Positions 6,603 to 36,299 of a stretch of 64,000 nucleotides of DNA are shown here, piece by piece. Position numbers and translations under genes: made by a program. The first letter of the stretch is position 1. Every line of letters begins with the position of its first letter. The notes beneath the pieces were generated by a model that saw only the letters and a program-made list of their open reading frames with translations, was not told where the DNA came from and did not search any database. The stretch covers positions 62,001 to 126,000 of the forward strand of contig NZ_WNDO01000010.1 in assembly GCF_009912395.1 (NCBI RefSeq). Direction: 5' to 3'. Source of the DNA: Luteibacter sp. Lineage in GTDB: Bacteria; Pseudomonadota; Gammaproteobacteria; Xanthomonadales; Rhodanobacteraceae.

Positions 6603-6678
<76 letters not shown>

Positions 6679-7918: not shown

Positions 7919-7956
7919 TCATGAGTTTCGGGAGGATTCATGCGTTTCGGGAGGCT
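7919..7956. repeat. Tandem 19-bp direct repeat upstream of the NRPS operon
   Basis: TCATGAGTTTCGGGAGGAT (7919-7937) is followed directly by TCATGCGTTTCGGGAGGCT (7938-7956); 17 of 19 bases match. Each unit holds an ATG and a GGGAGG block. It could be a protein-binding site or a duplicated leader region; nothing else in the window matches it that I noticed. Confidence 0.6.
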
Positions 7957-8352: not shown

Positions 8353-11300
8353 ATGAACACGCAAGATCACATCGCGAATGAGATTCCCACGTCCTGGAAC
8401 GGTAACGACATCGAATTCCCAGCGGACCGATGCATCCATGAACTGTTCGAGAGAGAGGTCGATCGTGCGCCTGAGGCGACGGCGCTGCGCCTTGGCGGCG
8501 AACTCCTGACCTACGCGGAGCTCGACGCACGCGCGAATCGCCTGGCGTGGCGCTTGAGGGACGTCGGCGTCGGGCCGGATGTGCGTGTCGCGATCTGCAT
8601 GCCGAGTCGCATCGAGCGCGTGATCGCGGTACTTGCGACCTGGAAGGCGGGCGGTGCCTATGTACCGCTCGATCCCGGATATCCGGTGGATCGCCTGGCC
8701 TATCTACTGCATGACAGTAGCCCCGCCGTCATGCTGACCGATGGCGATGTGCCCCACGGCGTGCGCGATGCCTTGCGACAGGTGGCGAATGAAACGACGG
8801 CGATCCTGGATATCGACGACGAGATGTCCTCGCATGGCCTGTCCGACCAGCGCCTCGCACGCGACACGACCGGCGTGGCACCGGAACACATGGCCTATGT
8901 GATCTACACCTCCGGGTCCACCGGGCAGCCCAAGGGCGTCATGGTGGAACATCGTGGCGTATGCAACCTGGCGACCATGCAGCGCGAGGTCTTTGCCGTG
9001 GACGCGTCGAGCAGGGTGCTCCAGTGCGCCTCCTTCAGCTTCGACGCCTGCCTGTTCGAAATGGTGATGGCGCTGTGCAACGGTGCCTCGCTGCATCTTC
9101 CGCCATCAGGCGCGATGGTGGCCTCCGCGACGCTGGCCGGTCTGCTGCTGGATGAAGGCATCACCCATGCGACGCTGACACCGTCCGTGCTTTCCGGCGT
9201 GGATGCCGTGCCATCGAGCCTGCCCCTGTTGCGTGTGCTCGCGGTGGCAGGCGAAGCCTGCCCATCGGCACTGGTCGACCGTTGGGCGCCAGGTCGTACT
9301 TTCATCAACGCCTACGGGCCGACGGAAACCACGGTCTGGGCGACATGGCACGCCTGTGTCCCGGGCACGGATCAGCGCCCGCCGATCGGACGTCCGGTGG
9401 GCAATACGACAGTGTACGTGCTGGATGCGCATGGCAAGCCAGCGGCCCCCGGTGCTTCCGGCGAACTCTACATCGGTGGTGTGGGTGTGGCGCGCGGCTA
9501 CCTCGGGCGCGATGCGCTGACCCGGGAGCGGTTCGTCCCCGATGTGTTCTCCGATCGCGCCGGCGCGACGCTTTATCGAACAGGCGACCTGGTGCGCTGG
9601 CTGGACGATGGCACGCTCGATTTCCTGGGGCGCGTGGACGACCAGGTGAAGCTGCGTGGACTGCGCATCGAACCCGGTGAAGTGGAGGCACGGCTCGCGG
9701 ACGTGTCAGGGGTGCGCGAATGCGCGGTCGTGCTCCGCGAAGACACCCCCGGCGACGCACGGTTGGTGGCCTATGTCATCGGTGACGGAACCGTCGCGAT
9801 CGAGCCTCGCGCGTTGCGTCACGCGCTGTCCGGCGTATTGCCCGAATACATGGTGCCCTCCGCGTATGTGACGCTGGATGCGTTGCCACTGACGCCGAAC
9901 GGCAAGCTGGATCGCAAGGCGCTCCCCGTTCCCGGTGCCAACGCCGTCACGCGCCGCCCCTATGTGGCGCCGGTGGGTGAACTGGAGACAGCCATCGCGA
10001 CGATCTGGAACGAATTGCTGCGCACGGGCGACGTGGGAAGGGATGACCACTTCTTCGAACTGGGTGGCCATTCGCTGCTTGCCGTGCAGGTCAGTTCCCG
10101 GTTGCGCCAGCGCATGGGTCTCGACGTGCCGATGAGTGGCGTGTTCTCGCATCCAGTGCTGCGTGACTTCGCCAACGCCGCCGGGCAGTCCGAGCCGGTG
10201 GATAGCTCTCCGTTCGTTCCGGGCCACCGACCCGATGCGCTGCCCCTGTCGTTCGCCCAGCAACGCTTGTGGTTCATCGCGCGGACCGGCGACGAGGCGA
10301 GCAAGGCCTATAACCTGGCGCTTGCGTTGCGTCTGGGCGGTTCGCTTAACAGTACGGCGTTATCGTCGGCCCTCGCGCGTATCGTGCAGCGTCACGAAGC
10401 CCTGCGAACCTGTTTCGGAATGGTCGACGGGCATCCGGTGCAACGGATACAGAATGCCAGCGCAGAGGTGCTGTCCTTTCATACGGGTGACGCGGATATC
10501 GTCGCCCGCTGGCGGCGGATCGATGCCGATGCGGCATTCGACCTGGCGAACGGGCCGATGTTCAGGGCGCGTCTCATTCGTGTCGCGGAGGAAGAACACG
10601 TCCTGCTACTCACGATGCACCATATCGTCTCCGACGGATGGTCCATGGGTGTCCTCGCGCATGAGCTGGATACGCTTTATCGCGCCTACGGGTCCGATGG
10701 CATGCCGGACGACATCGATCCGCTGCCCTCCCTGAATGTGCAGTACGCCGATTACGCGCTGTGGCAGCGGCATCGGTTCGATGCTCCGGCCCAGGCGTCG
10801 CAGATCGAGTTCTGGCGCGGTGAACTGGCCTCGGTGCCCGAGTTGGTGGATCTACCGAGCGATCGCCCGCGACCCGCGAGGCAGGACTATCGGGGGCGGC
10901 GTGTCGATATCGCCTTCGATGGCGAACTGACCTCGGCGCTACGCTCGCTGTCGCAACGGCATGGCGCGACCTTGTACATGACCCTGCTGGCCGCCTGGGG
11001 CGCGGTCGTATCCTGGCTGTCGGGCCAGGACGAGGTGGTGATCGGTTCTCCGGTGGCGAACCGGACGCGGACCGAGGTGGAACCGCTGATCGGCTTCTTC
11101 GTGAATACCCTCGCATTGCGAGTCGATGTCGCCGACCGGCCCACCGTGGCCCAGCTTATCGCGCAAGTGCGCGATCGCGTGCTTCGCGCCCAGGCGCATC
11201 AAGACCTGCCGTTCGAGCAGCTCGTCGAAGCACTGCGGCCGCGACGGACACTGGCGCATACGCCGATTTTCCAGATCGCCTTTGCCTGGCAGAACCGCGC

Positions 11301-14300
11301 GACCTTCGCGCTGGGTGGGCTGCAGGTGGAGGCGTTGCCCGAGCTGGCGGACCAGGCCCGTTTCGACCTCACGCTGGATCTCGCCGAAGAGGGCGGCCGC
11401 ATCGTCGGTTCGATGATCTACGCGACCTCGCTCTACGACGAGGAAACGGTGCGTCGTCACCTGGGTTATCTGGAAGCGACGCTTCGCGGCATGGTGCGGG
11501 ACGATACGCTGGAGATCGACAGCATCGCGTTGATCTCCGACACCGAGCAGGCCGCCTTGGCCACGCTCGCCGGTATCGACCGGCCTTATCCCTGCGACGA
11601 GCCGGTGTATCGCCTGGTGGAACGGCAGGCCGCGTTGACACCGGATACCGTCGCGGTGGAGCAGGACGGTCACGCGCTGACGTATCGCATGCTCGACGAC
11701 GAGGCGGACGCATTGGCGTGGCTGCTGAAGGCGAATGGCGTGGGTCCGGAAGAACGGGTGGCTTTGTGCCTGCGTCGCGGTCCGGATCTGGTGCGCGCGA
11801 TGCTCGCGGTGTCGAAGGCCGGGGGCGCCTATGTGCCGCTCGATCCGGCCCATCCCGTGGACCGCCTGCGCGACACGCTGGTGGACTGTGCACCGCGCGT
11901 GGTGTTGACGCATGCCGATCTGGCGGAAGACGGCCGTTTCGACGGTTGGGCCGTTCTTCGCGTGGAAGACGACATGCCGTCGCTGCCTGCGATAGCCCTT
12001 CAGGCGGCGGCGCCGTCGAACCTTGCCTATGTGATCTACACCTCCGGTTCGACGGGTCGCCCGAACGGGGTGATGGTGGAGCATCGCCAGTTGGCGAACC
12101 TGATCGGCTGGCACGGCGAAGCGTTTCCGTTGTCGCCGGGCGAACGTACGTCATGCACGGCGGGCGTGGCATTCGATGCCTGCACGTGGGAAATCTGGCC
12201 GGCGCTGTGCCACGGTGCGACGCTGGTGCTGCCGCCCTTGGCCACGGTGGGTGATCCGTCCGCGCTGCTGGACTGGTGGGAAGGCGAAGACCTTCGCACC
12301 AGCTTCCTGGTGACGGCGCTGGCCGACGCGGCACTGTCGCGCGGGCAGGCGAGCAAGACCGGATTACGCCAGCTGCTGACCGGTGGCGACCGGCTGGGCC
12401 GGTTGCCATCGGCGGAGCTACCGTTCGAGCTGATCAATAACTACGGCCCCACGGAAACGACAGTGGTGGCGACCTCCGGCGTGCTGCGCACGGACGATGG
12501 GCTGGTACATATCGGCCGACCGATCGCGAACACGCGGATCCACTTGCTGGATCGGCATGGCCGCCCGGTGCCGATGGGCGCGCCGGGCGAGATCCATGTC
12601 GCTGGCGCGCAGGTGGCGCGGGGCTACCTCAACCGACCGGAGCTGACGGCAGCGCGCTTCCTGCCCGATCCGTTTGCGATCGAGGCGGGCGCGCGCATGT
12701 ACCGGACAGGCGACCTCGGACGTTGGCTGCCGGATGGACGGCTGGCCTACCTGGGCCGTAACGACCATCAGGTGAAGATCCGCGGCCTGCGCATCGAGCC
12801 GGGCGAGATCGAGGCGCGACTGCTAGCTATCGAAGGCGTACGGGAGGCGACGGTGCTGGCGCGGGAGGACGTGCCGGGCGAGCGCCGACTGGTGGCGTAC
12901 GTGGTGCCGACGGAGGGCGTAACGCTGGAGGCCTCTTCGCTGCGCGACGCGCTGGCGGCGGTGCTGCCTGGGTACATGGTGCCGGTGGCATACGTGACGC
13001 TGTCGGCGTTGCCGCTGACGGCGAACGGCAAGGTGGATCGTCGCGGGTTACCGGCACCGGACGACGCAGCGTACGCGCAGCGTGTGTACGAGGCGCCAGA
13101 GGGCGAGGTGGAGATCGCGCTGGCGCGGCTATGGAGCGAACTGCTGGGTGTGGAGCGGGTGGGGCGGCGGGATAATTTCTTCGAACTTGGCGGCCACTCG
13201 TTGCTGGCCGTGCAGTTGGTTGAACGCATGCGTTCGCAGGGGCTGCATGCCGATATCGCCGCGCTGTTCGCCCAGCCGACCCTCGCCGCGCTTGCGCAGG
13301 CGGTGTCGGGGGATCATGCCGTGGACGCGTTGCCGACCTCCGGTCCGATCCCGCCGGGAAGTACGGTGATCGTCCCGGACATGCTGTCGCTCGTGGCCCT
13401 CGACCAACCGACGATCGACCGTATCGTCGCCACCGTGCCCGGAGGCACCGAGAACGTACAGGACATCTATCCGCTGGCGCCGTTGCAGGAAGGCATCCTT
13501 TTCCACCATCTGATGCATCCGGACGACGATCCGTATCTTCTGTCGATCACGCTTGGCTTCGCCACGCGGAACGAATTGGACGCGTTCGTCGATGCGCTCC
13601 GCCACGTAGTCGCACGTCACGACGTGTTGCGAACGGCGATGCGGTGGGAAGGGCTCGACGCACCGCTACAGTTGGTGTGGCGCGAGGCGCGGCTCGACGT
13701 GACGGAGGTCGATGGGGCGATCGATCCCCGTGAGGCGGGGCTCGATCTTCGGCAGGCTCCGCTCGTGAAGGGATTCGTGGCGTCCGATACGGTCACGGGG
13801 CGCTGGTCGTTGCAACTGGTTCACCATCATCTGGTGCTCGACCATACCGCGCTGGACGTGCTGCTACGCGAGATCGCGATGATCCGTGCCGGTCGTGCCG
13901 ATGCACTGGGTGAACCGGTGCCCTTCCGACGGTTCGTGGCATGGTCGCGCCACGGCGTGGATATCGCAGCGCAGGAAGGATTCTTTCGAAGCATGCTGGG
14001 CGACGTGGACGAACCGACCGCGCCGTTCGGCCTGCTGGACGTGCACGGCGACGGGCGTGACACGGATCAGGCGCGACGCACCTTGTCGACGGCGCTTGCG
14101 GTCCGTCTGCGCGCGCAGGCCCGGCGTCTCGGCGTGAGTGTCGCCAGCCTGTTCCATTGGGCCTGGGCACAGGTGTTGGCGAAGACCACGGGACGCGACG
14201 ATGTCGTCTTCGGCACCGTACTGTTCGGTCGGCTCCATGCCGGTGATGGTGCGGACCGCGCCATGGGCCTGTTCATCAACACGTTGCCGATCCGTATCGG

Positions 14301-17300
14301 GCTGGGGGAGGTCGGCGTCCGCGATGGCGTCGTGAGAACGCAAGCGACCTTGTCGGGACTCGTTCGCCACGAGCACGCCTCGCTCGCGCTGGCACAGCGT
14401 TGCAGCGCGATACCTGGCGGTACGCCGTTGTTCTCCTCCTTGCTCAACTACCGGCATAGCGCCGAAGGCCACGACACGGATTGGACGCACGGCCACGATG
14501 TCGTGTCGACGCACGAGCGTACGAGTTATCCCATCGACCTGTCCGTCGACGATCACGGCGAAGGCTTCAATCTGAGCGCGCAGGCGGTCGTCGCCGTCGG
14601 CGCGGCGCGTGTCTGTGCCTATATGGAGCAGGCGTTGGTGGCGCTGGCCGACGCGCTGGACATCGATCCGTCACGGCCCTCGTGGCATGTCGACATCCTG
14701 GACGATGCGGCGCGCTCGCAGGTGCTGGCGATGGGGCGGGGTGACGCCATGATGGCGGCCGACGGTCTCATCCATGCGCTGTTCGAGGAACAGGCTCGCA
14801 GGACACCGCAGGCCGTCGCGCTGGAACACGCGGGCCGTCACCTGACCTATGAGGAACTGAACGCGCGGGCGAACCGCCTGGCACGCCACCTTCGCGATCA
14901 GGGGGTGGGGCCAGACGATCGCGTGGCGTTGTGCGTCGAACGCGGGATGGATGCGATCGTGGCGATCCTTGCCACGCTCAAGGCCGGTGGCGCTTACGTG
15001 CCGCTGGATCCGTCTTACCCCGACGACCGACTGGCGCACATCGTGCGTGACAGCGAACCGCGGGTGGTGCTGACGCTGGAGGCAATGGATCGCGTCACGC
15101 GGATCGCGCCGCATGTGCCGCGCATCGACCTGGACGCCGCCGAACCGGCATGGCAAGCGCTGGCCGCGCACGACGTGCCGGCCTCCGATGTCGGCCTGCA
15201 CGCAGGTCATCTGGCCTATGTGATCTACACCTCGGGCTCGACAGGTGTGCCGAAGGGCGTGGCGGTGGAGCATGGTGCCTTGCGTCGACGCATCGAGGGA
15301 CTGTCGGCCTGCTACGGCTTCCACGCATCGGACCGGATACTCCAGTTCGCCTCGATCAATTTCGACGCGTCGGTGGAAGAGATCTGCGGCGCCCTGACCC
15401 AGGGTGCGGCGCTGGTGTTGCGAACGCCCGAATGGCTGGTCGCGGCCGACGCGTTCTGGACCTTGTGCGAAGGCGCAGGTATCAGTGTCGTCGACCTGCC
15501 GACGAAGTTCTGGCAGCAGTTGGTGTCCGATAGCACCGCGACGGTACCCGAGGGCGTTCGCGCCGTCATCGTCGGTGGCGAGGCCATCGACCCGGTGACG
15601 GTGGGGCGCTGGATGGCGATGTCCGGTCATCGTCCGCGCCTGTTCAACACGTATGGGCCGACGGAGGCCATCGTCGTCGCCACGGTGCAGGAGGTGGTGG
15701 ACCGCGCCGACGTGCAGATCGGTCGGCCGGTGGCCGAGACCTCCATCTATGTGCTCGATGCGCACGGCGGGCCGGTGGCGCCCGGGGTCGCGGGCGAGAT
15801 CCATATCGGTGGCGCGACCCTGGCCCGCGGATACATCGGCCGTCCCGAACTGACACAGGAGCGTTTCGTCGACGATCCGTTTGCGAGCCATCGGGGGGGG
15901 CGCATGTACCGTACGGGCGATCTCGGTCGCTGGTCGGCCGATGGGCGGCTCGAATACATGGGGCGCAACGACCAGCAAGTGAAGATCCGCGGTTTCCGCG
16001 TCGAGCCGGCCGAGATCGAGGCCACGCTTCGCGGTCTTTCCTTGGTACGCGACGCGGCCGTGCTCGCATTGCCCGACGCGACGGGCGGCACGCAACTGGT
16101 GGCCTACGTGGTCGCCGTGTCGGGGGAGGCTCTCGATCCATCAGGCCTTCGCGCAGCTCTGTCGGCGGTGTTCCCCGAATACATGCTGCCGGCGGCCTAT
16201 GTGGCGCTCGACCGCTTGCCGCTCACGCCGGGCGGCAAGCTCGATCGTCGTGCGCTGCCCGTGCCGTCCGGCGACGCGTTCGTACGGCGTGCCTACGAGG
16301 CGCCGCGTGGCGATACCGAGGTCGCGCTCGCACATCTGTGGAGCGAGGTGCTCCAGGTGGAACGGGTAGGGCGCACCGACCACTTCTTCGAACTGGGTGG
16401 TCATTCGCTACTCGCGGTGCGTCTCATGGAGCGCATGCGTCGCGCATCGATGCATGCCGATATCCGCACGCTGTTCGCCCGGCCGACCCTCGCCGCGTTG
16501 GCCGAAGCCGTGGACGAGGCAAGGCGTGAAGGCTGGCAGGGCGTGGTCGTGCCGCCTGCTCGCATTCCCGTCGGCACGCAGGACATCACGCCGGCGATGC
16601 TGCCGCTGGTCGACCTCGACCAGGCGCAGATCGATCGTATCGTGGCCTCGGTTCCCGGGGGATCGAGCAACGTGCAGGACATCTACCCGCTCGCGCCGTT
16701 GCAGGAGGGCATCCTGTTCCATCACCTGCTGCAACGTCATGGCGACCCCTACCTGTTGTCGACCTTGCTGTCGTTCGCATCGCGGGATCGGCTGGATGCG
16801 TTCGTCGATGCCTTGCAGGCGGTGATCGATCGCCACGACGTACTCCGTACCGCGGTGCTGTGGGACGGCCTTCCGGAACCCGTACAGGTGGTGTGGCGCA
16901 ACGCGCGTCTCGAAATCGAGACGCCTGATCTCCCGAGCGACGACAGGGTCGCTGCCCTGAAGGCCCATACCGACCCGCGCGACCACCGTCTCGACATCAC
17001 GCGGGTGCCGTTGATGCGCGCCGTCGTCGCGCACGATCGCCAGACGGATCGCTGGCTTTTGTCGCTGCTACAGCACCACCTTGCCATGGACCATGTCACG
17101 GGCGACCTCATCCTGGAAGAGATCGGCCAGATCCTCGATGGCGATGAGGCGATGCTCGCGGCACCCTTGCCGTTCCGCGATTTCGTGGCGCAGGCCCGCC
17201 TGGGCGCGAGCATCCAGGAGCACGAGTCGTTCTTCCAGGCGATGCTGGGCGACGTGGACGAGCCGACGGCGCCGTTCGGCCTGCTGGACGTGCATGGCGA

Positions 17301-26265: not shown

Positions 26266-29200
26266 ACGCCACGTTGGACAACATGAGCCGGGCGGCGCGC
26301 GAAGCGCTTTTCCTCAAGGCGCAAGCCGCGCGACGCAAGGGCGGTGCGGCTGCCCGACCGGTCGGCGTGCCCGCTCGCCAGGCCCCGCGTGATCATTGGC
26401 CCGTGTCGCATGCGCAGCGTCGCCTGTGGTTCATCGCGCACATGTGGCCGGCGGCCCACAACCTTCCAGCGGCCCTGCGTTTGCACGGAAGGCTCGATGA
26501 GGTGGCCTTGCAGGCGGCGATCGACCGGATCGTGCAGCGGCACGAAGCCTTGCGCACGCATTTTGACGTGGTGGACGAGCAACCCGTGCAACGTATCGCG
26601 GCGACGGGGCGCGTCGCATGGTGTCGCCATGACCTGTCCGGGGACGATGGCAAGTACGACGCCGTCGCGCATTGGCGGGATGTCGAGGCGAGCACGCCGT
26701 TCGATATCGCCACGGGTCCGTTGATCCGTGGCCGCCTGCTTCGGTTGCACGCGGACGAGCATGTGCTGCTGCTGACGATGCACCACATTGTCTCCGACGG
26801 CTGGTCGATGGGTGTGCTGGCCCATGAACTGGGTGAGCTCTATCGCGCCTATGCCGGTGGCCTGGCGGTCGATGTCGATCCGTTGCCGGCGCTGCCGATC
26901 CAGTACGCGGACTACGCCGCCTGGCAGTGTGACTGGCTCGTGGGCGATATCCGGCAGCGGCAGCTTGCCTACTGGACAGAACAGCTGTCCGGCGCGCCGA
27001 CGAAGGTCGAATTGCCGACGGATCGTCCGCGCCCATCCGTCCAGGATCATCGCGGGGCCGGGATCGCCTTCGAACTGGACGTGTCGCTGACGACAGCGCT
27101 GAAAGCGCTGTCCCAGCGCCATGGCACGACGTTGTACATGACCTTGCTGGGTGCATGGGCGGCGGTCGTGTCGCGGCTGTCCGGGCAGGATGACGTGGTG
27201 ATCGGCTCCCCGGTGGCGAATCGAACGCGTACCGAGGTGGAACCGTTGATCGGCTTCTTCGTGAACACGCTCGCGCTGCGGGTCGGGTTCGGGGACAGGC
27301 CCAGTGTGGCGCAACTTTTGGCGCAGGTGCGCGATGCCGTGCTCCAGGCACAGGATCACCAGGACCTGCCGTTCGAACAAGTGGTGGAGGCGTTGAGTCC
27401 GCGCCGGACCCTGGCGCATACGCCGATCTTCCAGCTGGCCTTTGCGTGGCAGAACACCCCGGGTGACACGTCCGCCTGGGGCGATGTCGCGGTCGACTCC
27501 CTGCCATCGCGCGAAGGGGAACAGCTCGCACAGTACGACTTGACGCTTGAACTGCGCGAAGAGGAAAACGGTGTCGCCGGTACGCTGGTCTACGCGACCG
27601 CGCTCTTCGATGAAGCAACGATGCGTCGGCACCTGGGTTACCTGCGCGCGATGCTGCGTGGCATGGTCGAGGACGATGCGCTGGCCATGGACGCGATGCC
27701 ACTCGTGGACGATGAAGAACGAGACCAGCTGGCGGCATTCGATGGCGCCGCGCGCGTCTATCCCGTGGATCGACCGATCCATGCATGGTTCGAAGCACAG
27801 GCACGTTCGTCGCCCGATGCGGTGGCCATGGAGCAGGATGGCCGGACCTGGCGCTTCCGTGCGCTGGACGAGGAAGCCAACGGCCTCGCGCACGCCCTGC
27901 GCGATAGGGGCGTGGGTCCGGAGGAACGCGTGGCGTTATGCCTGCGTCGCGGTCCGGACCTGATACGCGCGATGCTTGCGGTGTCGAAGGCCGGAGGCGC
28001 CTATGTGCCGCTCGACCCCGCGTATCCGTCGGAACGGTTGCGCGACACGCTGGCGGATTGCGCGCCGCGCGTGGTGCTGACGCATGCCGACCTCGCCGAA
28101 GACGATGCCTTGTCGGGCGAATGGTCGATCCTGGCCATCGACGGGGCGGATCGTCCGGCGCCCATGAGTGATGCGCCGGTCTCCGACGACTTCGACGGAA
28201 GCCGGCTCGCCTATGTGATCTACACCTCCGGCTCGACGGGTCGCCCGAATGGGGTGATGGTGGAGCATCGCCAGCTAGTGAATCTGGTCGGCTGGCACGG
28301 CGAAGCCTTTCCGCTGTCGCCGGGCGAACGGACGTCATGCACGGCGGGCGTGGCGTTCGATGCCTGCACGTGGGAAATCTGGCCGGCGTTGTGCCACGGT
28401 GCGACGCTAGTGCTGCCGCCATCAACGACGGTGGGCGATCCGTCCGCGCTGCTGGACTGGTGGGAAGGCGAAGACCTTCGCACCAGTTTCCTGGTGACGG
28501 CGCTGGCCGACGCGGCACTGTCGCGCGGGCAGGCGAACAAGATCGGACTACGCCAGCTGCTGACCGGTGGCGATCGGCTGGGCCGGTTGCCATCGGCGGA
28601 GCTGCCGTTCGAGCTGGTCAACAACTACGGCCCCACGGAAACGACGGTGGTGGCGACCTCCGGCGTGCTGCGCGCGGACGATGGGCTGGTGCATATCGGC
28701 CGGCCGATCGCGAACACGCGAATCCACTTGCTGGATCGGCATGGCCGCCCGGTGCCGATGGGCGCGCCGGGTGAGATCCATATTGCTGGCGCGCAGGTGG
28801 CGCGGGGCTACCTCAACCGTCCGGAGCTGACGGCGGCGCGCTTCCTGCCCGATCCGTTCGCGACCGAGGCGAATGCGCGCATGTACCGGACCGGCGACCT
28901 CGGACGTTGGCTGCCGGATGGACGGCTGGCCTACCTGGGCCGTAACGACCATCAGGTGAAGATCCGCGGCCTGCGCATCGAGCCGGGCGAGATCGAAGCA
29001 CGGCTGCTCGCTATCCAAGGCGTGCGCGAGGCGACGGTGCTGGCGCGGGAGGACGTGCCGGGCGAGCGCCGACTGGTGGCGTACGTGGTGCCGACGGCCG
29101 GCGTGACGCTGGAGGCCTCGTCGCTGCGCGACGCGCTGGCGGCGGTGCTGCCTGGGTACATGGTGCCGGTGGCATACGTGACGCTGTCGGCGTTGCCGCT

Positions 29201-32200
29201 GACGGCGAACGGCAAGGTGGATCGTCGCGGGTTACCGGCTCCGGACGACGCCGCGTACGCGCAGCGTGCGTACGAGGCGCCAGAGGGCGAGGTGGAGATT
29301 GCGCTGGCACGGCTATGGAGCGAACTGCTGGGTGTGGAGCGGGTGGGGCGACAGGACGATTTCTTCGATCTTGGCGGTCACTCTCTGCTTGCGGTGCGCA
29401 TGACCTCGCGACTCCGGCAGCGCTCAGGTCTGGATGTGCCGGTCTCTGCGGTCTTCATGCATCCGACGCTGCGGGAATTCGCCCGGATCGCCGCCGAAGC
29501 GCGACCGGACGACGTGCCACCCCTCGTGGCCGGTGCGCGTCCGCGCGTGTTGCCCTTGTCGTTTGCCCAGCAACGCCTGTGGTTTATCGCGCACATGGGT
29601 GACGGAGCGAGTAGTGCCTATCACGTGCCCGGCGCGCTGCGTTTGCATGGCGAACTCGATATCGGCGCAATGCAGGCGGCACTGGATCGGATCATCCAGC
29701 GACACGAGGCCTTGCGCACCCGATTCGAATCCGTCGAAGGCCTGCCCGTGCAGCGGATCGACCATGACGCGACCTTCGCGCTTGCCCACCACGACCTGCG
29801 CGACGAGATCGATCGTGACGAAGCCGTGGAGCGCTGGCGTCGCCACGATGCGGAGACGCCTTTCGACTTGTCGCGAGGCCCGCTTGCGCGTGGCTATCTG
29901 CTCCGGGTCGCGGATCGCGAGCATGTGCTGCTACTGACGATGCACCACATCGTTTCCGATGGCTGGTCGATTGGCGTCTTCATGGAGGAGCTGGACACCT
30001 TGTACCAGGCTTATGCGAAGGGCGATGTGCATCCAGGTGTGGACCCGTTGCCGGCGCTGCCCATCCAGTATGCCGACTACGCGCTGTGGCAACGCCGCTG
30101 GCTGACGGGCACGGCGCAGCGCAGGCTCGTCGAGTTCTGGCGGAATCATCTGGCGAAGGCACCCTCGCTGGTTGGACTGCCCACCGACCTGCCCCGGCCG
30201 TCGGTACAGGATTACCGTGGCGCGTCGATCGATGTCGTGCTCGACGCGGCACTGACGGCCGGGCTGCGTCACCTGTCCCAGCGTCACGGCACGACGCTCT
30301 ACATGACCTTGCTCGCCGCTTGGGCCGCCTTGGTCGCAAGGCTCTCCGGTGACGAGGACGTGGTGATCGGTTCCGCGCTAGCCAATCGTACGCGTGCGGA
30401 GATGGAACCCCTGATCGGCTTCTTCGTGAACACCGTGGCATTGCGGGTGGCCTTTGGCGACCGTCCCACCGTCGCCCAGTTGCTCGCCCAGGTGCGCGAT
30501 AGCGCGACCCAGGCCCAGGGGCACCAGGACCTGCCGTTCGAACAGGTGGTGGAGGCGCTGAAGCCGCCTCGTACCCTGGCGCACACGCCGCTTTTCCAGC
30601 TCATGTTCGCCTGGCAGGGGGCATCGTCTGGCACGACGACCCTGGGCGGCCTCGACCGGGAGGCATTGTCGCCGGATCACGTGGCGGCGAAGTTCGACCT
30701 CACGCTGGAACTGGGCGAAGAAGGCGACACGATCGCCGGTACGATCGTGTACGCCTCGGCACTGTATGCGGAGGACACGATCCGGCGTCACGTCGCGTAT
30801 CTGGTCGCCCTGCTGCGCGGCATGGTGGACGACGATACGCGTGCGGTGGACGCGATACCGATCGTGTGCGGCAGGGAGGCTCGCCGCCTGGCCCAACTGC
30901 ACGTGACCGAGCGTTCCTACCCGCAGGATCGCTATGTGCACGAAGGGTTCGAGCGACAGGCCAGGGCGACGCCCGATATCGTCGCCGTCGAACAGGATGG
31001 TCACGTACTGACCTATCGCGAACTGGACGAGGCCGCGAACCGCCTCGCGCATGTGCTGCGCGCATATGGCGTGGGTCCGGAGGTGCGGGTGGCGTTGTGC
31101 CTGCGTCGCGGCGAAGCGTTGGTGCTCGCGATGCTCGCGGTGCTGAAGGCCGGTGGCCCGTATGTCCCGCTTGATCCTGCCTATCCGGCCGAGCGCCTGC
31201 GGGCCACCTTGCATGACTGCGGGCCACGGGTCGTACTGACGCAGAAGGATCTTGCGATCGACGGAAACCTCGATGGCGACTGGCAGGTGCTCTTGCTGGA
31301 TGATCCGGACAGCCGGTGGAAGGAGTCGTCCGGCGAGGTGCCGACGGCGGACGACGTCGACGGAAGTCGGCTGGCCTACGTGATCTACACGTCGGGTTCA
31401 ACGGGTCGTCCGAACGGCGTGCTTGTCGAGCACCGTCAGTTGGCGAACCTGATCGGTTGGCATGGCGACGCCTTCCCGCTGTCGCCGGGCGAGCGCACGT
31501 CATGCATGGCGGGCGTGGCGTTCGATGCCTGCACCTGGGAGATATGGCCCGCGCTATGCCGTGGTGCGACCCTGGTGCTGCCGCCGTTGGTGACGACCGG
31601 CGATCCGGTCGCGTTGCTGGACTGGTGGGAGCAGGAGGATCTGCAAACCAGTTTCCTGGTGACGGCGCTGGCGGACGCGGCGTTGTCGCGCGGGCAAGCC
31701 GAGCGCGGAAACCTCCGCCAGCTATTGACCGGTGGCGATCGCCTTGGCCGCCTACCGTCCGCCGATCTGCCCTTCGAGCTGATCAACAACTACGGCCCGA
31801 CGGAGACGACCGTGGTGGCGACTTCCGGCGTGCTTCGCGCCGACGACACGCTGCCGCATATTGGCCGACCGGTGGCGAACACACGGATCTACCTGCTGGA
31901 TCGCCATGGTCATCCGGTGCCGCACGGCGCGCCCGGCGAGATCCATATCGGTGGCGCGCAGGTCGCTCGCGGCTACTTGAATCGCCCGGAGCTGACGGCC
32001 GCGCGCTTCCTGTCCGATCCCTTCGCGGACGGGGCCGAGGCGCGCATGTACAAGACCGGTGATCTGGGTCGCTGGCTACCTGACGGTCGCCTGGCGTATC
32101 TGGGTCGCAACGATCACCAGGTGAAGATCCGTGGTTTGCGCATTGAACCGGGCGAGATCGAATCCCGCCTGCTGGAGATCGACGCGGTGCGCGAAGCGGC

Positions 32201-33521
32201 GGTGCTCGCGCGCGAAGATGTTCCCGGTGAACAGCGGCTCGTCGCGTACGTGGTGCAGGGTGACGGCGTCCGCCTGGAAAACGCGTCGCTACGGGACGCG
32301 CTGACGCGCACGCTTCCGGCCTATATGTTGCCCTCGGCTTATGTGTCGCTCGACGCATTGCCGCTGACCCCGAACGGGAAGGTGGATCGCCGGGCATTGC
32401 CGGCACCCGACGCGCACGCCTATGTGCAACGCGGTTACGACGCACCCCAGGGGGATGCGGAGATTGCGCTGGCCCATCTGTGGTGCGAACTGCTCGGTGT
32501 CGACACCGTGGGACGCCGGGACAATTTCTTCGAACTCGGTGGGCACTCGATGTTGCTGTCGCGTCTGGTGGATGGAGCGCGTAAAGCTGGGTTGGCGATG
32601 GACCTTCGCCAGGTGTTCGATGCACCGGACCTGATGTCGCTTGCCGCTATCGTCGGCGTGGCCGACCGCGTGGCGGACATGCACTCGACGATGGTGCCGA
32701 TCCGTTCGGCGGGTGACGAGGCTCCGCTATTCTGTTTCCACGAGGGCTTCGGCACGATCCTCGCGTACGAACGGCTTGCGCGGTTCGTCGATCCCCGGAT
32801 TCCCGTGTATGCGCTCGAGGCCAGGGGCTTGCACGAAGATCTGCCCGTCTACCGCACGGTCGAGGCGATGGCGGCGGACTACCTCGCGCAACTGGAACGC
32901 ATCCAGTCTGCCGGGCCCTATCGCCTGACTGGATGGTCCAGCGGTGGACTCATCGCCTACGAGGTCGCCCATCAGTTGATGACGAAGGGCGAGACGGTCG
33001 AATTCCTCGGCCTCATCGACACCTACAACATCGCGGTGGAGGACCTGGAGGGCGACATCGCCGAAACTACGCATTACCTCGTGCGCACGCTGGAGTACCT
33101 GAGGCCCGACCTCGCGCCGGAAATCTTGCGGGCCCTGCTGTCGCTGGGTGGCCTCGATGCCACGGTCGAGGAATGCCATCGCAACGGATGGTTGCCAGTC
33201 GACGTGACCGCACGCGATATGGATCGGCGATTCCAGGTCGCAAAGGACATCGGTCGCGCTTGCGCGGCCTATACGCCACCGCCCCTCGTGCTGGACGTGG
33301 ACCTGTTCAGCGCCAGCGAGCCGGCGCGCGAGGACCGAAGCAATGGCTGGGCCGACGTGATCGGCGCTTGCCTCGACGTGACCCGGATGGAGGGATCGCA
33401 CATGTCGATCATGCAGGACGAAACGCTCATCCGTCGGGTCACCGATGTCATGAACCGGGCGATGATGGGAACGCGTGACAAGGCACGCGACGAGCGTCTG
33501 TCGAAGGAGCGTTGGGCATGA
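26262..33521 (+). CDS. Nonribosomal peptide synthetase, two modules plus thioesterase
   Basis: A 2419-residue synthetase that adds residues 7 and 8 and releases the peptide: C-A7-T7-C-A8-T8-TE. Both condensation domains have HHIVSDGWS (about residues 174 and 1228) and lack the dual-domain opening, so they should accept L-residues. Both adenylation pockets read DAWFLGNVV, the leucine code. Carrier sites are GGHSLLAV (about 1038) and GGHSMLL (about 2093). The terminal thioesterase has GWSSGG (Ser about 2225), a candidate Asp in GLIDTYN and His in GSHMS. Whether TE hydrolyses or cyclises cannot be read. It starts in an ATGA overlap with the first synthetase and ends in one with the exporter, so all are one transcript and probably translationally coupled. 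Module 7 is almost identical in DNA to module 2 of the first protein over the A-T region. Confidence 0.95.
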   Translation: MNATLDNMSRAAREALFLKAQAARRKGGAAARPVGVPARQAPRDHWPVSHAQRRLWFIAHMWPAAHNLPAALRLHGRLDEVALQAAIDRIVQRHEALRTHFDVVDEQPVQRIAATGRVAWCRHDLSGDDGKYDAVAHWRDVEASTPFDIATGPLIRGRLLRLHADEHVLLLTMHHIVSDGWSMGVLAHELGELYRAYAGGLAVDVDPLPALPIQYADYAAWQCDWLVGDIRQRQLAYWTEQLSGAPTKVELPTDRPRPSVQDHRGAGIAFELDVSLTTALKALSQRHGTTLYMTLLGAWAAVVSRLSGQDDVVIGSPVANRTRTEVEPLIGFFVNTLALRVGFGDRPSVAQLLAQVRDAVLQAQDHQDLPFEQVVEALSPRRTLAHTPIFQLAFAWQNTPGDTSAWGDVAVDSLPSREGEQLAQYDLTLELREEENGVAGTLVYATALFDEATMRRHLGYLRAMLRGMVEDDALAMDAMPLVDDEERDQLAAFDGAARVYPVDRPIHAWFEAQARSSPDAVAMEQDGRTWRFRALDEEANGLAHALRDRGVGPEERVALCLRRGPDLIRAMLAVSKAGGAYVPLDPAYPSERLRDTLADCAPRVVLTHADLAEDDALSGEWSILAIDGADRPAPMSDAPVSDDFDGSRLAYVIYTSGSTGRPNGVMVEHRQLVNLVGWHGEAFPLSPGERTSCTAGVAFDACTWEIWPALCHGATLVLPPSTTVGDPSALLDWWEGEDLRTSFLVTALADAALSRGQANKIGLRQLLTGGDRLGRLPSAELPFELVNNYGPTETTVVATSGVLRADDGLVHIGRPIANTRIHLLDRHGRPVPMGAPGEIHIAGAQVARGYLNRPELTAARFLPDPFATEANARMYRTGDLGRWLPDGRLAYLGRNDHQVKIRGLRIEPGEIEARLLAIQGVREATVLAREDVPGERRLVAYVVPTAGVTLEASSLRDALAAVLPGYMVPVAYVTLSALPLTANGKVDRRGLPAPDDAAYAQRAYEAPEGEVEIALARLWSELLGVERVGRQDDFFDLGGHSLLAVRMTSRLRQRSGLDVPVSAVFMHPTLREFARIAAEARPDDVPPLVAGARPRVLPLSFAQQRLWFIAHMGDGASSAYHVPGALRLHGELDIGAMQAALDRIIQRHEALRTRFESVEGLPVQRIDHDATFALAHHDLRDEIDRDEAVERWRRHDAETPFDLSRGPLARGYLLRVADREHVLLLTMHHIVSDGWSIGVFMEELDTLYQAYAKGDVHPGVDPLPALPIQYADYALWQRRWLTGTAQRRLVEFWRNHLAKAPSLVGLPTDLPRPSVQDYRGASIDVVLDAALTAGLRHLSQRHGTTLYMTLLAAWAALVARLSGDEDVVIGSALANRTRAEMEPLIGFFVNTVALRVAFGDRPTVAQLLAQVRDSATQAQGHQDLPFEQVVEALKPPRTLAHTPLFQLMFAWQGASSGTTTLGGLDREALSPDHVAAKFDLTLELGEEGDTIAGTIVYASALYAEDTIRRHVAYLVALLRGMVDDDTRAVDAIPIVCGREARRLAQLHVTERSYPQDRYVHEGFERQARATPDIVAVEQDGHVLTYRELDEAANRLAHVLRAYGVGPEVRVALCLRRGEALVLAMLAVLKAGGPYVPLDPAYPAERLRATLHDCGPRVVLTQKDLAIDGNLDGDWQVLLLDDPDSRWKESSGEVPTADDVDGSRLAYVIYTSGSTGRPNGVLVEHRQLANLIGWHGDAFPLSPGERTSCMAGVAFDACTWEIWPALCRGATLVLPPLVTTGDPVALLDWWEQEDLQTSFLVTALADAALSRGQAERGNLRQLLTGGDRLGRLPSADLPFELINNYGPTETTVVATSGVLRADDTLPHIGRPVANTRIYLLDRHGHPVPHGAPGEIHIGGAQVARGYLNRPELTAARFLSDPFADGAEARMYKTGDLGRWLPDGRLAYLGRNDHQVKIRGLRIEPGEIESRLLEIDAVREAAVLAREDVPGEQRLVAYVVQGDGVRLENASLRDALTRTLPAYMLPSAYVSLDALPLTPNGKVDRRALPAPDAHAYVQRGYDAPQGDAEIALAHLWCELLGVDTVGRRDNFFELGGHSMLLSRLVDGARKAGLAMDLRQVFDAPDLMSLAAIVGVADRVADMHSTMVPIRSAGDEAPLFCFHEGFGTILAYERLARFVDPRIPVYALEARGLHEDLPVYRTVEAMAADYLAQLERIQSAGPYRLTGWSSGGLIAYEVAHQLMTKGETVEFLGLIDTYNIAVEDLEGDIAETTHYLVRTLEYLRPDLAPEILRALLSLGGLDATVEECHRNGWLPVDVTARDMDRRFQVAKDIGRACAAYTPPPLVLDVDLFSASEPAREDRSNGWADVIGACLDVTRMEGSHMSIMQDETLIRRVTDVMNRAMMGTRDKARDERLSKERWA

Positions 33522-35266
33522 GCGCGGCTTCGGTATCCCGTTCGTCGCTATGGTCGCTCCTGCGCATGGCGCGTCCATCCCGGCCATTGCTGGGGGCGGC
33601 AATGGGCATGACCCTGCTGTCGGTGGCCGGCACGCTCGGGTTTCCCGTATTGACCCGCCGCTTGGTGGACACGCTTGCCCACGGGGCGCCGGACATCGCC
33701 GGCATCGCGCTGCTGGCCTGCGTCATGGCGGGGTCGGCCATCGCATCGGCCGTGTCGGGCTATCTGCTCAGTCGCGTCGGTCACGACATGATCGCCTCGT
33801 TGCGTACGTTGCTCGTGGAGAAGCTGTTGCGCCTTCCCGTGGCCGCCTTCGATCGGGAGAGCACCGGTGAACGTGTCAGTCGCGTCTTGAGCGATTGCCA
33901 GTCGATCTCCGAACTGGCGACACGGCAGATGGTCAACCTCGTGAGCGGTGTGTTGGTTCTCACTGGCTCGATCGTCGTGCTGCTGTATTTGGATATTCGC
34001 CTGACGCTCACCGTGCTGGGGTGCATCGTCCTTGCCTTCGGCGTGGCGATTCCTCTCGCGGCGATGCTCGAAGGTCTCGCCTTGAGCACGCAGGATCGCA
34101 CGGCGAAGCTGGGCGGCATCCTCACCCACGTGCTGTCGGAGATCCGCCTGGTGAAGGCGTTCACGGCGGAAACCCGCGAGCGCGAGCGGAGCCGCGCGGA
34201 GATCCTGGACATCCGACGGCTCGGTATCCGCGTGGCGAAGATCAGCGCGGTGCTTGGGCCCCTGATCAGTCTTTCGCTGACCGCCGCCATCCTGGTCATC
34301 CTCGTCTACGGTAGTTCGCGCGTGGGCAGCGGCAGCATCAGCATCGGCACGCTCACGGCCTTTATCCTCTACATCTTCAACGTCGCGTTGCCCCTGGTGC
34401 AGCTGACGACCTTCCTGGAGGAATGGCAGAAGGCGAAGGGCGCGTCGACGCGTATCGCGGTGCTGCTCCATGAAGAGGAAGAGAGCACGGTCGGCGATGA
34501 CGTGGAAGGCATCGACGGCCTGCTGGAGTTCCGTAACGTCTCCTTCGGCTACCCGGGGCGGGAGGCGACCGTGCTGCACGGCATCGACCTGGTGTTCCGA
34601 CCTGGTACCACCACCGCGTTGGTGGGCGCCAGCGGCAACGGCAAGACCACCGTGCTGTCGTTGATCGAACGTTTCTATTCGCCCGGATTCGGGGCGGTGT
34701 TGTGTGATGGCAGACCGATCGGCGACTTCGCCTTGCCCGCATGGCGCAGCCGCATCGGCTACGTGGCGCAGAGCGCGCCCATCATGCCTGGCACCGTACG
34801 CGACAACATCGTCTACGGTCTCGATCGCGCCTGTTCCGACGATGAGGTATGGGATGCCGCGGCGCAGGCGGGGGCGATGGAATTCATCGGACAGATGCCG
34901 CAAGGCCTGGACACCGTGCTCAGCGAGCAGGGGGGCAACCTCTCCGGCGGGCAACGGCAACGCATCGCCATCGCGCGCATGTTCCTGCGCAATCCCGATG
35001 TGCTGATCCTCGACGAAGCCACCTCCAGTCTCGACAGCGAAACCGAGCACCGCGTGAAGACGGCGCTGGAGTCGTTGATGCAAGGGCGCACCAATATCGT
35101 GGTGGCGCACCGGCTAGCCACCGTGATGCATGCGGATCGGATCTATTTCCTCGAGAACGGCCGGATATCCGGCGCAGGCAACCACGAGGAGCTGCTTTCG
35201 ACGCACGCCCCGTATGCGCGCCTGGTCGCCAGGCAGTTCCGCCGTCCGGAAAAGGAGAGCGCATGA
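33518..35266 (+). CDS. ABC exporter, fused membrane and ATPase domains
   Basis: A 582-residue half-transporter of the MsbA/LmrA type, most likely exporting the NRPS product as a homodimer. Six membrane segments occupy about residues 15-300. The ATPase follows with Walker A GASGNGKTT, signature LSGGQRQRIAIARM, Walker B VLILDEATSSLD and H-loop VAHRL. The ATG at 33518 overlaps the synthetase stop (ATGA) and has AAGGAG 8 bases upstream; an in-frame ATG two codons earlier is less well placed. Context gives the substrate; the sequence alone does not. Confidence 0.9.
   Translation: MSAASVSRSSLWSLLRMARPSRPLLGAAMGMTLLSVAGTLGFPVLTRRLVDTLAHGAPDIAGIALLACVMAGSAIASAVSGYLLSRVGHDMIASLRTLLVEKLLRLPVAAFDRESTGERVSRVLSDCQSISELATRQMVNLVSGVLVLTGSIVVLLYLDIRLTLTVLGCIVLAFGVAIPLAAMLEGLALSTQDRTAKLGGILTHVLSEIRLVKAFTAETRERERSRAEILDIRRLGIRVAKISAVLGPLISLSLTAAILVILVYGSSRVGSGSISIGTLTAFILYIFNVALPLVQLTTFLEEWQKAKGASTRIAVLLHEEEESTVGDDVEGIDGLLEFRNVSFGYPGREATVLHGIDLVFRPGTTTALVGASGNGKTTVLSLIERFYSPGFGAVLCDGRPIGDFALPAWRSRIGYVAQSAPIMPGTVRDNIVYGLDRACSDDEVWDAAAQAGAMEFIGQMPQGLDTVLSEQGGNLSGGQRQRIAIARMFLRNPDVLILDEATSSLDSETEHRVKTALESLMQGRTNIVVAHRLATVMHADRIYFLENGRISGAGNHEELLSTHAPYARLVARQFRRPEKESA
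35251..35257 (+). promoter_or_regulatory. Strong Shine-Dalgarno for the 20-codon mini-ORF
   Basis: AAAGGAG with 5-base spacing to the ATG at 35263. The dioxygenase start at 35322 has no comparable site, so this SD probably drives both by coupling. Confidence 0.6.
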
Positions 35267-35325
35267 CGCCTCGCACCCTTGACGGCACCCCGCCTCCCTC
35301 CACCCTTACCGGACTCGCACCATGA
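35263..35325 (+). CDS. 20-codon mini-ORF linking exporter and dioxygenase
   Basis: The frame starts with ATGA overlapping the exporter stop and ends in TGA overlapping the ATG of the dioxygenase at 35322. It has a strong, well-spaced SD. It encodes 20 residues rich in Pro and Thr (MTPRTLDGTPPPS...) with no recognised function. The likely role is a coupling leader that delivers ribosomes to the dioxygenase start, which lacks its own SD. It is not in the same frame as the dioxygenase, so it is not an N-terminal extension of it unless a frameshift is present. Confidence 0.55.
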   Translation: MTPRTLDGTPPPSTLTGLAP

Positions 35326-36299
35326 CGACCGCCACGCTCGATTCGCATGACTTCACCATCGACGACCTCGTTCCCGTCGGGGGCATGCCCCTGCGGTTGG
35401 ACGTGGCGGGTGCGGGTAGCGCCGTGGCCTGGGCCACGGAACACCAGGACGCGGTACGGGCCATTCTCCACACGCATGGCGCGATGCTTATTCGCGGCCT
35501 CAACGTGCCGGGGAGCAGTCAGTTCGGCAAGATCCTGTCGACCTTGTTCGGCGGCGAGCTGGTCGAATACGTCTACCGTTCGACGCCACGTACCGGGCTT
35601 CGCGGCAACGTCTACACAGCCACCGAATACCCTGCGAGCGAGGTCATTCCCCAGCACAACGAAAACGCCTATTCGCGACAGTGGCCACTTCGCATCGGCT
35701 TCCTCTGCATGCTGCCTTCGGAGACGGGCGGGGAAACGCCCATCGGCGACAGCCAGCTCATCCACGACATGCTTCCGGCCTCCATCCGCGAGCGCTTCGA
35801 GGCGAAGGGGGTGATGTACGTGCGCAACTACTCCGATCTCGACCTGCCGTGGTCCGTGGTCTTCCAGACCGAGGACAGGGACGAGGTGGAGGCCTATGGC
35901 CGTGCCAACGGCATGACCTGCGAATGGCAGCCGGACGGTAGCCTGCGCACCGTGCAGGTGAACCCGGCCACGGCGATCCATCCGGTGACGGGGCAGCGCC
36001 TGTGGTTCAATCAGGCGCATTTGTTCCATGTGTCCAGCCTGGGCGAGGGTGCCGCCGCCAGCCTTGTCGCATCGGTGGGCGAGGAGAACCTGCCGCGTAA
36101 CGCCTACTATGGTGACGGCACGCCCATCGAGGCGGAGACGCTCGCGTTCATCCGATCGGCCTACGAAAGCACCCGGATCCGGTTTCCGTGGGAGCGAAAC
36201 GACCTGCTGCTACTGGACAACATGCGCTTTACCCACGGCAGGGAGTCCTTCACCGGTGCGCGCAAGGTGCTGACGGGCATGGCGTGCCCAAATCGCTAG
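35322..36299 (+). CDS. SyrP/AsnO-like Fe(II)/2-oxoglutarate dioxygenase
   Basis: A 325-residue TauD/clavaminate-synthase-like oxygenase. The iron ligands are visible as the HxE pair in QHNENAY (about residues 112-114) and the distal His in THGRESF (near residue 306), followed by a likely 2-oxoglutarate-binding Arg in GARKVL. The HxE variant is the one known for AsnO and clavaminate synthase, as opposed to HxD of most relatives. Family knowledge: SyrP hydroxylates Asp and AsnO hydroxylates Asn at the beta carbon during peptide antibiotic synthesis. Here the fifth adenylation domain reads as Asn, so beta-hydroxylation of that residue is the natural guess. Its start overlaps the mini-ORF stop. 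Its own stop overlaps the stop of the convergent gene by 4 bases. Confidence 0.85.
   Translation: MTTATLDSHDFTIDDLVPVGGMPLRLDVAGAGSAVAWATEHQDAVRAILHTHGAMLIRGLNVPGSSQFGKILSTLFGGELVEYVYRSTPRTGLRGNVYTATEYPASEVIPQHNENAYSRQWPLRIGFLCMLPSETGGETPIGDSQLIHDMLPASIRERFEAKGVMYVRNYSDLDLPWSVVFQTEDRDEVEAYGRANGMTCEWQPDGSLRTVQVNPATAIHPVTGQRLWFNQAHLFHVSSLGEGAAASLVASVGEENLPRNAYYGDGTPIEAETLAFIRSAYESTRIRFPWERNDLLLLDNMRFTHGRESFTGARKVLTGMACPNR

Follow-up and report, generated by a model that had tools for sequence, protein, structure and literature searches.

Which peptide is assembled by the eight-module NRPS operon located at 8353-36299 in the 64,000-nucleotide Luteibacter sp. stretch analysed here (the window)? 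The initial annotation had described a possible octapeptide whose residue order matched no known peptide. The present analysis points to a clovibactin-type depsipeptide assembly line, a reading to which we assign a probability of about 0.88. A domain scan of the window frames revealed an operon of the order NRPS-NRPS-ABC-TauD with eight A domains, seven C domains and one TE, thereby bearing out the eight modules and single thioesterase claimed earlier. The modules are split 6+2, the line starts with A-T and ends in its only TE, and an ABC exporter and a TauD gene follow NRPS2, as in the clovibactin/hypeptin depsi-octapeptide lines. These two last genes lay inside the coordinates of the initial annotation but were absent from its reasoning. 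The features are listed below, the module edges being calculated from module lengths and cut 40 residues past the T-domain motif.

6603..6678, + strand: tRNA-Gly(gcc), left edge of the insertion
8353..26265, + strand: NRPS1, modules 1-6, A-T-[C-A-T]-[Cdual-A-T]-[Cdual-A-T]-[C-A-T]-[Cdual-A-T], ATG start at 8353 (domain scan)
8353..10182, + strand: module 1, A-T lacking a C domain, code DAFTAAAVW (aromatic residue, Phe being probable; DAFTVAAVW in E. terrae)
10183..13308, + strand: module 2, C(LCL)-A-T, Leu code DAWFLGNVV (codes and C-domain class)
13309..16515, + strand: module 3, C(dual E/C, about 13459-14724)-A-T, code DAEDIGTVV (same code as E. terrae module 3, Lys in clovibactin)
16516..19773, + strand: module 4, C(dual E/C, about 16675-17979)-A-T, Ser code DVWHVSLVD (codes and C-domain class)
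19774..22974, + strand: module 5, C(LCL, about 19822-21174)-A-T, Asn code DATKVGEVG, without interface-like domain (codes and comparison with relatives)
22975..26262, + strand: module 6, C(dual E/C, about 23125-24426)-A-T, Ala code DLFNNALTY (codes and C-domain class)
26262..33521, + strand: NRPS2, modules 7 and 8 (both Leu, DAWFLGNVV), terminal thioesterase at about 32658-33518, motif GWSSGG
33512..35266, + strand: ABC exporter (PF00664 and PF00005)
35322..36299, + strand: TauD-family Fe(II)/2OG oxygenase, predicted Asn beta-hydroxylase (H-x-E...H and Arg conserved)
37257..37742, + strand: conserved regulator frame (Response_reg/GerE), right edge

The A-domain codes of modules 1 to 8 (M1-M8), which cover nine positions without the tenth (Lys517), were obtained twice, by hand and via HMM columns, and both approaches agree. 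As for the C domains, C3, C4 and C6 belong to the dual E/C class (N-terminus QDIYPLAPLQEGILF), which is found at modules 3, 4 and 6 only, and C2, C5, C7 and C8 to the LCL class. Codes and classes predict the peptide aromatic1, D-Leu2, D-Lys3, L-Ser4, D-(OH)Asn5, L-Ala6, L-Leu7, L-Leu8. The residue order and D/L pattern proposed earlier, with three dual epimerase/condensation domains, are thereby fully reproduced, and the amphipathic prediction holds. At position 5, the code does support the Asn put forward initially, but beta-hydroxy-Asn would be the better assignment since a TauD hydroxylase gene closes the operon.

Clovibactin (Novo29) is given as L-Phe, D-Leu, D-Lys, L-Ser, D-hydroxyAsn, L-Ala, L-Leu, L-Leu (PMC12481569), with a lactone joining OH-Asn5 to Leu8 (PMC9942206). 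The window codes follow this very order, Phe-Leu-Lys-Ser-Asn-Ala-Leu-Leu, with residue 1 as the weak point, and the claim of an order without known match therefore falls. Judging from this succession of building blocks, the line would make clovibactin or a very close relative. Residue 1 is uncertain because position 299 of the M1 code is Ala instead of Val. Regarding residue 3, the M3 code agrees at 7/9 positions with the Lys code DGEDHGTVV and likewise at 7/9 with the Arg consensus (PMC12283262), and is by itself ambiguous between the two; Arg, allowed by the code alone, was decided against and Lys chosen solely because the code is identical to that of E. terrae. No match to the M1 and M3 codes was found in the literature searched, structure searches with A1, A3 and TauD against solved structures returned general family matches that do not point to particular substrates, and neither an MbtH gene nor a 16S sequence was found in the strain's own genome.

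The comparison that carries this reading is with a cluster on plasmid NZ_CP106952.1 (record 469035-498858) of Eleftheria terrae P9846-PB, which we take to be the clovibactin producer and whose record metadata, giving North Carolina soil as its origin, are consistent with that role. The two clusters are collinear and share module number, 6+2 split, A-T start, dual C domains at modules 3, 4 and 6, one TE, code order, an ABC exporter and a TauD gene in last position. For every one of the nine window units (eight modules and TE), the E. terrae unit in the corresponding position is the best match, with 53-73% identity; in the reverse search, 2/9 E. terrae units (E2 and E8) prefer another Leu module. 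NRPS1 is 66% identical to N7L95_RS26205 across the best match of 4322 columns. The nine-residue codes are identical in 6/8 modules, and the other two differ from those of E. terrae at position 299 only (V to A in M1, I to V in M4). In a quick tree including L. psychrotolerans, C4 and C5 cluster by position across the three clusters with starred support, C3 and C6 do so at 90, unstarred, and C2, C7 and C8 show no grouping by position. This close match of the whole module order, together with the published clovibactin sequence, rules out an unknown octapeptide.

Nevertheless, the two loci are not equal in every respect. The gene order is the same except for one small gene ahead of ABC in E. terrae, and for three small genes close to the E. 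terrae operon the window shows no clear counterpart. Besides, the E. terrae cluster is borne by a plasmid, whereas the window is part of a 169-kb contig whose neighbouring genes are of housekeeping type, in a Rhodanobacteraceae-type genome where the cluster adjoins a tRNA-Gly. Two genus relatives have an empty site, with about 1.0-1.2 kb from the tRNA-Gly to the regulator frame and without the cluster. The tRNA-Gly was rejected as attachment site, its last 15, 18, 20 or 25 bases not being repeated elsewhere in the window.

In the proposed pathway, module 1 would load an aromatic amino acid with a free amine and modules 2-8 would add Leu, Lys, Ser, Asn, Ala, Leu and Leu, residues 2, 3 and 5 being inverted during condensation by the dual E/C domains of modules 3, 4 and 6. 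Asn5 would be hydroxylated on the carrier domain by the TauD oxygenase. The product should be a macrolactone, in which the TE would close a four-residue ring by joining Leu8 onto the beta-hydroxyl of OH-Asn5, and it may be exported by the ABC protein. By analogy, its target would be the pyrophosphate of lipid II, lipid III and C55-PP. With Phe as residue 1, the computed formula is C43H70N10O11 ([M+H]+ 903.530), the same as the clovibactin formula given in PMC12566907.

What is new here is the hydroxylation step. In E. terrae, as in the sister, hypeptin-like cluster of Lysobacter psychrotolerans ZS60 (G487, contig NZ_RIBS01000005.1), an extra C-like domain, probably an 'interface' domain, lies between C5 and A5 of module 5; it is absent from the window, its presence not being known to be defining for such lines. 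The window TauD holds the same operon position as the TauDs of these two relatives, to which it is only 51% (E. terrae) and 53% (L. psychrotolerans) identical, whereas they share 83% with each other. In a tree of 52 of 92 TauDs, it falls in another clade than theirs, and a grouping of the window, E. terrae, L. psychrotolerans and G227 sequences has an AU p of 0.008; it is therefore not regarded as their ortholog, orthology being likewise not known to be defining. Because the interface-like domain is missing and the TauD is of another clade, the window holds a clovibactin-type line with a displaced beta-hydroxylase. The idea that the interface-like domain and module 5 were swapped as one block was discarded: C5 and A5 are 67 and 74% identical to the same-position E. 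terrae domains, and only the extra domain and the TauD differ. A natural exchange, in which the line lost an interface-dependent beta-hydroxylase along with its docking domain and gained an interface-independent TauD in its place, has in our view an even chance of being correct, and would yield the same antibiotic or a C3 diastereomer with changed activity.

How close the product is to clovibactin depends on residues 1 and 5. The M1 code DAFTAAAVW, compared to DAFTVAAVW in E. terrae, and the identity of 65.6% for A1, the second lowest among the eight A domains when the two clusters are compared, would fit an analogue with Tyr, Trp or mixed residues at position 1, V299A enlarging the pocket. 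We nevertheless consider this unlikely, the remaining eight M1 positions being identical to those of E. terrae module 1, which is expected to load Phe, and a single code change of such kind often leaving A-domain specificity unaltered. For residue 5, since the hydroxylase is no ortholog of the E. terrae one, neither the hydroxylation site nor the C3 configuration is assured. With a TauD from a different clade that works without interface-like domain, the line might yield the C3 epimer of clovibactin, or a peptide that is hydroxylated or cyclised in another way, as the clade split and the AU test would allow. Indeed, the OH-Asn configuration varies among TauD pathways, being reported as (2R,3R) in clovibactin (PMC9942206) and, as the larger of two diastereomer peaks, (2R,3S) in flavipulchrin 1 (PMC12819058). 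This outcome is however doubtful, as the TE (60-61% identical to those of the relatives) and the ABC protein (78%) are of the family and a TE fitted to one configuration might be unable to cyclise the other. In addition, the (2R,3S) epimer of clovibactin (epi-Novo29) is described as inactive, with an MIC over 32 ug/mL (PMC9942206), so that selection should disfavour it.

That the peptide is linear or otherwise used, for example as a signalling peptide or siderophore, instead of being a cell-wall antibiotic, appears highly improbable. Function is deduced here from sequence, and TauD-family beta-hydroxylases serve siderophores too (PMC12971057), but the collinearity with a clovibactin-type cluster, the terminal TE and the adjoining exporter argue against such a use, and a Pfam scan of 28 window frames brought up no siderophore transport family.

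The L. psychrotolerans cluster resembles the window in its 6+2 architecture, its dual C domains at modules 3, 4 and 6 and its order NRPS1-NRPS2-ABC-TauD, with 77% identity for ABC, 60% for the TE and 61-68% for the C domains. By contrast, its A domains of modules 1, 4, 6 and 8 are merely 45-50% identical to those of the window, in addition to its interface-like domain and other TauD. About 1.6 kb separates NRPS2 from ABC in that cluster. Its codes read Ala-Leu-basic-Asn-Asn-Tyr-Leu-Ile, where the Tyr and Ile assignments, like the hypeptin sequence used for comparison, are assumed by us. Hypeptin is characterised by Arg3, Tyr6 and two Asn modules, whereas the window has DAEDIGTVV at M3, Ser at M4 and Ala at M6; with codes differing at positions 1, 3, 4, 6 and 8, hypeptin itself was dismissed. 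The ABC proteins are 78% (window-E. terrae), 77% (window-L. psychrotolerans) and 80% (E. terrae-L. psychrotolerans) identical, and in a six-row tree the three group at 92/95, unstarred, the tree singling out no earliest branch among them.

Two clusters (G460 and G470), presumably of the WAP-8294A type as named from their codes, have an ABC exporter 64-65% identical and an adjoining TauD, but are longer, with another order and a distant TauD (42%). The clusters of the TauD relatives G076, G209 and G533 were set aside as other, longer NRPSs, and those of the Xanthomonas or SyrP/Asp-hydroxylase type because window module 5 has an Asn code, not Asp. No clovibactin-like code order occurs in 12 other NRPS stretches of the L001 and L006 genomes, the L. 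maris genome being fragmented into small pieces; NRPS stretches of L001 and L006 end at the contig end within the last module. Finally, clovibactin is described as related to teixobactin, with a similar ring (PMC9942206, PMC12481569), the latter differing by its eleven residues and by D-Thr8 at the ring position of OH-Asn5 (PMC9942206).

The described source of clovibactin, Eleftheria terrae ssp. carolina, is an uncultured soil betaproteobacterium (PMC12566907, PMC12481569), and the present cluster sits in another bacterial family than this known producer. It would thereby represent a second possible source, and its A domains, TE and exporter would give heterologous production a second set of parts. 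In addition, the three clusters, with their about equally related exporters (77-80%), separate two kinds of change: other A domains at modules 1, 4, 6 and 8 in the hypeptin-like line, and, in the window, a different hydroxylase combined with the absence of a docking-type domain. The window cluster therefore offers a direct test of whether Asn hydroxylation requires the interface-like domain, and of what governs the activity-determining C3 configuration.

The plus-strand operon of the window comprises four genes:

8353-26265, plus strand, NRPS1
26262-33521, plus strand, NRPS2
33512-35266, plus strand, ABC exporter
35322-36299, plus strand, TauD-family oxygenase

HMM and motif analysis resolves the two synthetases into the domain string A-T / C-A-T / Cdual-A-T / Cdual-A-T / C-A-T / Cdual-A-T // C-A-T / C-A-T-TE. 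The specificity codes of its modules (M1-M8) were read twice, by hand and via HMM column mapping, with the same outcome.

Table. Specificity codes in the window and in Eleftheria terrae P9846-PB, with the identity of each pair of units.
M1: DAFTAAAVW; DAFTVAAVW; 62.6%
M2: DAWFLGNVV; DAWFLGNVV; 66.3%
M3: DAEDIGTVV; DAEDIGTVV; 63.3%
M4: DVWHVSLVD; DVWHISLVD; 72.7%
M5: DATKVGEVG; DATKVGEVG; 53.0%
M6: DLFNNALTY; DLFNNALTY; 67.0%
M7: DAWFLGNVV; DAWFLGNVV; 69.5%
M8: DAWFLGNVV; DAWFLGNVV; 66.3%
TE: 60.6%

The codes of M5 and M6 are assigned to Asn and Ala, in agreement with the E. terrae cluster. For its part, DAWFLGNVVK has appeared in print as a Leu code (PMC12283262). The predicted peptide carries D residues at positions 2, 3 and 5, and its residue order is that of clovibactin (Novo29), described as L-Phe1, D-Leu2, D-Lys3, L-Ser4, D-hydroxyAsn5, L-Ala6, L-Leu7, L-Leu8 (PMC12481569), with a lactone joining OH-Asn5 and Leu8 (PMC9942206). 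The formula computed for the cyclic peptide with Phe1/Lys3 and one OH-Asn, C43H70N10O11, is also the one printed for clovibactin (PMC12566907). The initial annotation had soundly observed the NRPS line, and its stereochemical prediction was good, the D positions being those of clovibactin; its statement that the peptide could not be recognised fails, since the order is that of clovibactin and a collinear cluster exists in E. terrae. In the accessible portions of the open-licence literature on clovibactin (also in combination with candidate genera), hypeptin, the codes and interface domains, no account of another clovibactin-type cluster was found.

A tblastn search of 72,556 plasmid records with the exporter (E up to 1e-100) matched 16 of them, and the sole match above 60% identity was E. 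terrae P9846-PB (NZ_CP106952.1; exporter 78.5%), where the gene order is NRPS, NRPS, small gene, ABC exporter, TauD. Six of the eight codes are identical to those of the window, M1 and M4 differing at position 299 only. All nine window units (eight modules and the TE) are best matched by the E. terrae unit at the same position, and seven of nine are in the reverse comparison, in which E. terrae modules 2 and 8 score slightly higher with window module 7 than with their own position. The condensation domains C2, C7 and C8 of the window's NRPS1/NRPS2, which are LCL domains preceding Leu A domains, cluster mutually rather than by position (support 87, in a quick tree with a long-branch warning), a grouping that suggests gene conversion inside the line. 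Strain P9846 is presumably the clovibactin producer. The source of clovibactin is reported as E. terrae ssp. carolina (PMC12566907), and a North Carolina soil origin is given in PMC11565595.

Across the order, the exporter was matched in five of 398 genomes, the own one included (E <= 1e-150; three best candidates per genome scored), and the nearest among these matches is Lysobacter psychrotolerans ZS60 (G487). Its cluster (G487:C15:326001-386000, stretches L141-L143) has the same architecture as that of the window; its codes specify Ala, Leu, a basic residue, Asn, Asn and Tyr // Leu and Ile, and a TE ends the line. It is taken to be hypeptin-like, on what we assume to be the hypeptin sequence. 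Domain identities for window-E. terrae, window-Lysobacter and E. terrae-Lysobacter are, respectively, 62-72, 61-68 and 74-78% for the C domains, and 66-78, 45-50 and 48-54% for A1, A4, A6 and A8, the latter as would be expected if the Lysobacter A domains had been replaced at those modules. Hypeptin is described as coming from a Lysobacter and as having features in common with teixobactin (PMC8868522), and other Lysobacter genomes examined in PMC11451712 are given as devoid of its cluster.

The exporter was found in one of 230 family genomes and in one of 274 genomes of the class sample, each time the own genome of 5.39 Mb (E <= 1e-150; at most five candidates scored per genome). The family also includes Rudaea sp. 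3F27F6 (G209), and Rudaea belongs to Rhodanobacteraceae according to NCBI. NRPS2, ABC and TauD were found in none of the four site stretches from same-genus genomes (G104, G106, G111, G120). The left flank (melibiases, a threonine-aldolase-like gene and tRNA-Gly) lies ~1.0-1.2 kb from the right flank (a regulator frame and RNase E) in G104 and G111, while G106 has other DNA between the flanks and the left flank of G120 falls outside the stretch. From this flank comparison, the cluster is an insertion adjoining tRNA-Gly, presumably of horizontal origin; a repeat of the tRNA-Gly end was searched for in the window and not found. An MbtH gene was not found in the own genome, the control search being positive in E. 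coli and B. subtilis.

NRPS clusters abound in this strain, since smaller NRPS genes also occur on its contigs C54 (at 10-30 kb and at 118-132 kb) and C55 (at 143-162 kb). Contig C14 carries a second very long NRPS (~8755-40533 of L112+L113+L114), a 10593-aa frame that holds nine A domains and several C domains of the dual E/C type, with codes including Leu, Ser and Asn. Two further genes of the window adjoin each other and possibly form a separate peptide-modifying locus:

57834-59678, minus strand, prolyl-oligopeptidase-family gene
59675-60835, minus strand, radical SAM/SPASM protein

An additional C-like domain separates C5 from A5 in E. terrae, at nrps1 residues 4357-4800, and in L. psychrotolerans, at residues 4360-4803, whereas in the window C5 runs directly into A5. 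The two domains are 62% identical and form a separate branch in the C-domain tree; of the two motif His, E. terrae keeps both, while L. psychrotolerans has Arg in place of the second. We infer an interface domain of the beta-hydroxylase-partner kind, a term ("interface domain") that occurs in the antiSMASH 8 paper (PMC12230676). In a weak scan of 90 TauD loci, whose profile was built from these two domains themselves and in which many loci are cut within 10 kb, often leaving the hydroxylated module outside view, only E. terrae and L. psychrotolerans had such a domain immediately 5' of an Asn-coding A domain. Locus L032 has one before a non-Asn code and L058 one following a T domain, and a plain C-A precedes the Asn code at some loci (e.g. 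L005, L052 and those of genomes G076 and G470).

TauD identity is 51% for window-E. terrae, 53% for window-Lysobacter and 83% for E. terrae-Lysobacter; the adjoining ABC exporters give 78, 77 and 80% for the same pairs. A TauD tree was built from 52 of the 92 extracted stretches (40 were dropped by hand, including many near-duplicate Pseudoalteromonas rows and also cyanobacterial ones). The window TauD clusters there with that of G076 (97/80) and with that of Lysobacter maris L001 (100/97), and those of E. terrae and L. psychrotolerans with genome G227 (100/99); Pseudoalteromonas flavipulchra (L048) forms no supported group with E. terrae and L. psychrotolerans. A constraint placing the window TauD in one group with those of E. 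terrae, L. psychrotolerans and G227 was rejected (AU p = 0.008), as was the same constraint without G227 (p = 2.5e-6), which is harsher since the G227 group is also broken. Because the interface-like domain is absent and the window TauD belongs to another clade while having the catalytic H-x-E...H and Arg, hydroxylation is probably performed by a displaced, interface-independent TauD.

Among the other TauD loci, the nearest relative of the window enzyme (69%; L001, 1-2515) stands straight after a TE-bearing NRPS end, and a relative of the window exporter was not found in this 12.5-kb locus, whose contig ends upstream. The G227 TauD (L107, G227:C12:183001-203000, ~7150-8010), from a genome of the window's own family, is 76% identical to those of E. 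terrae and L. psychrotolerans and part of a longer 561-aa frame; an A domain was not found in the 20-kb stretch that contains it. Nostoc sp. NMS8 (L064, 2452 and 9955) has an NRPS code, DAFTTAAVW, close to that of window M1, in an NRPS next to a TauD and a module with an Asn code.

Clovibactin's (2R,3S) epimer is reported as inactive, with an MIC over 32 ug/mL versus 0.125-0.25 for the natural compound against two Gram-positive species (PMC9942206), and the C3 outcome is for this reason the chief chemical question for the predicted product. Judged from its sequence, the operon is a clovibactin-type line whose host lineage and hydroxylation equipment are new.
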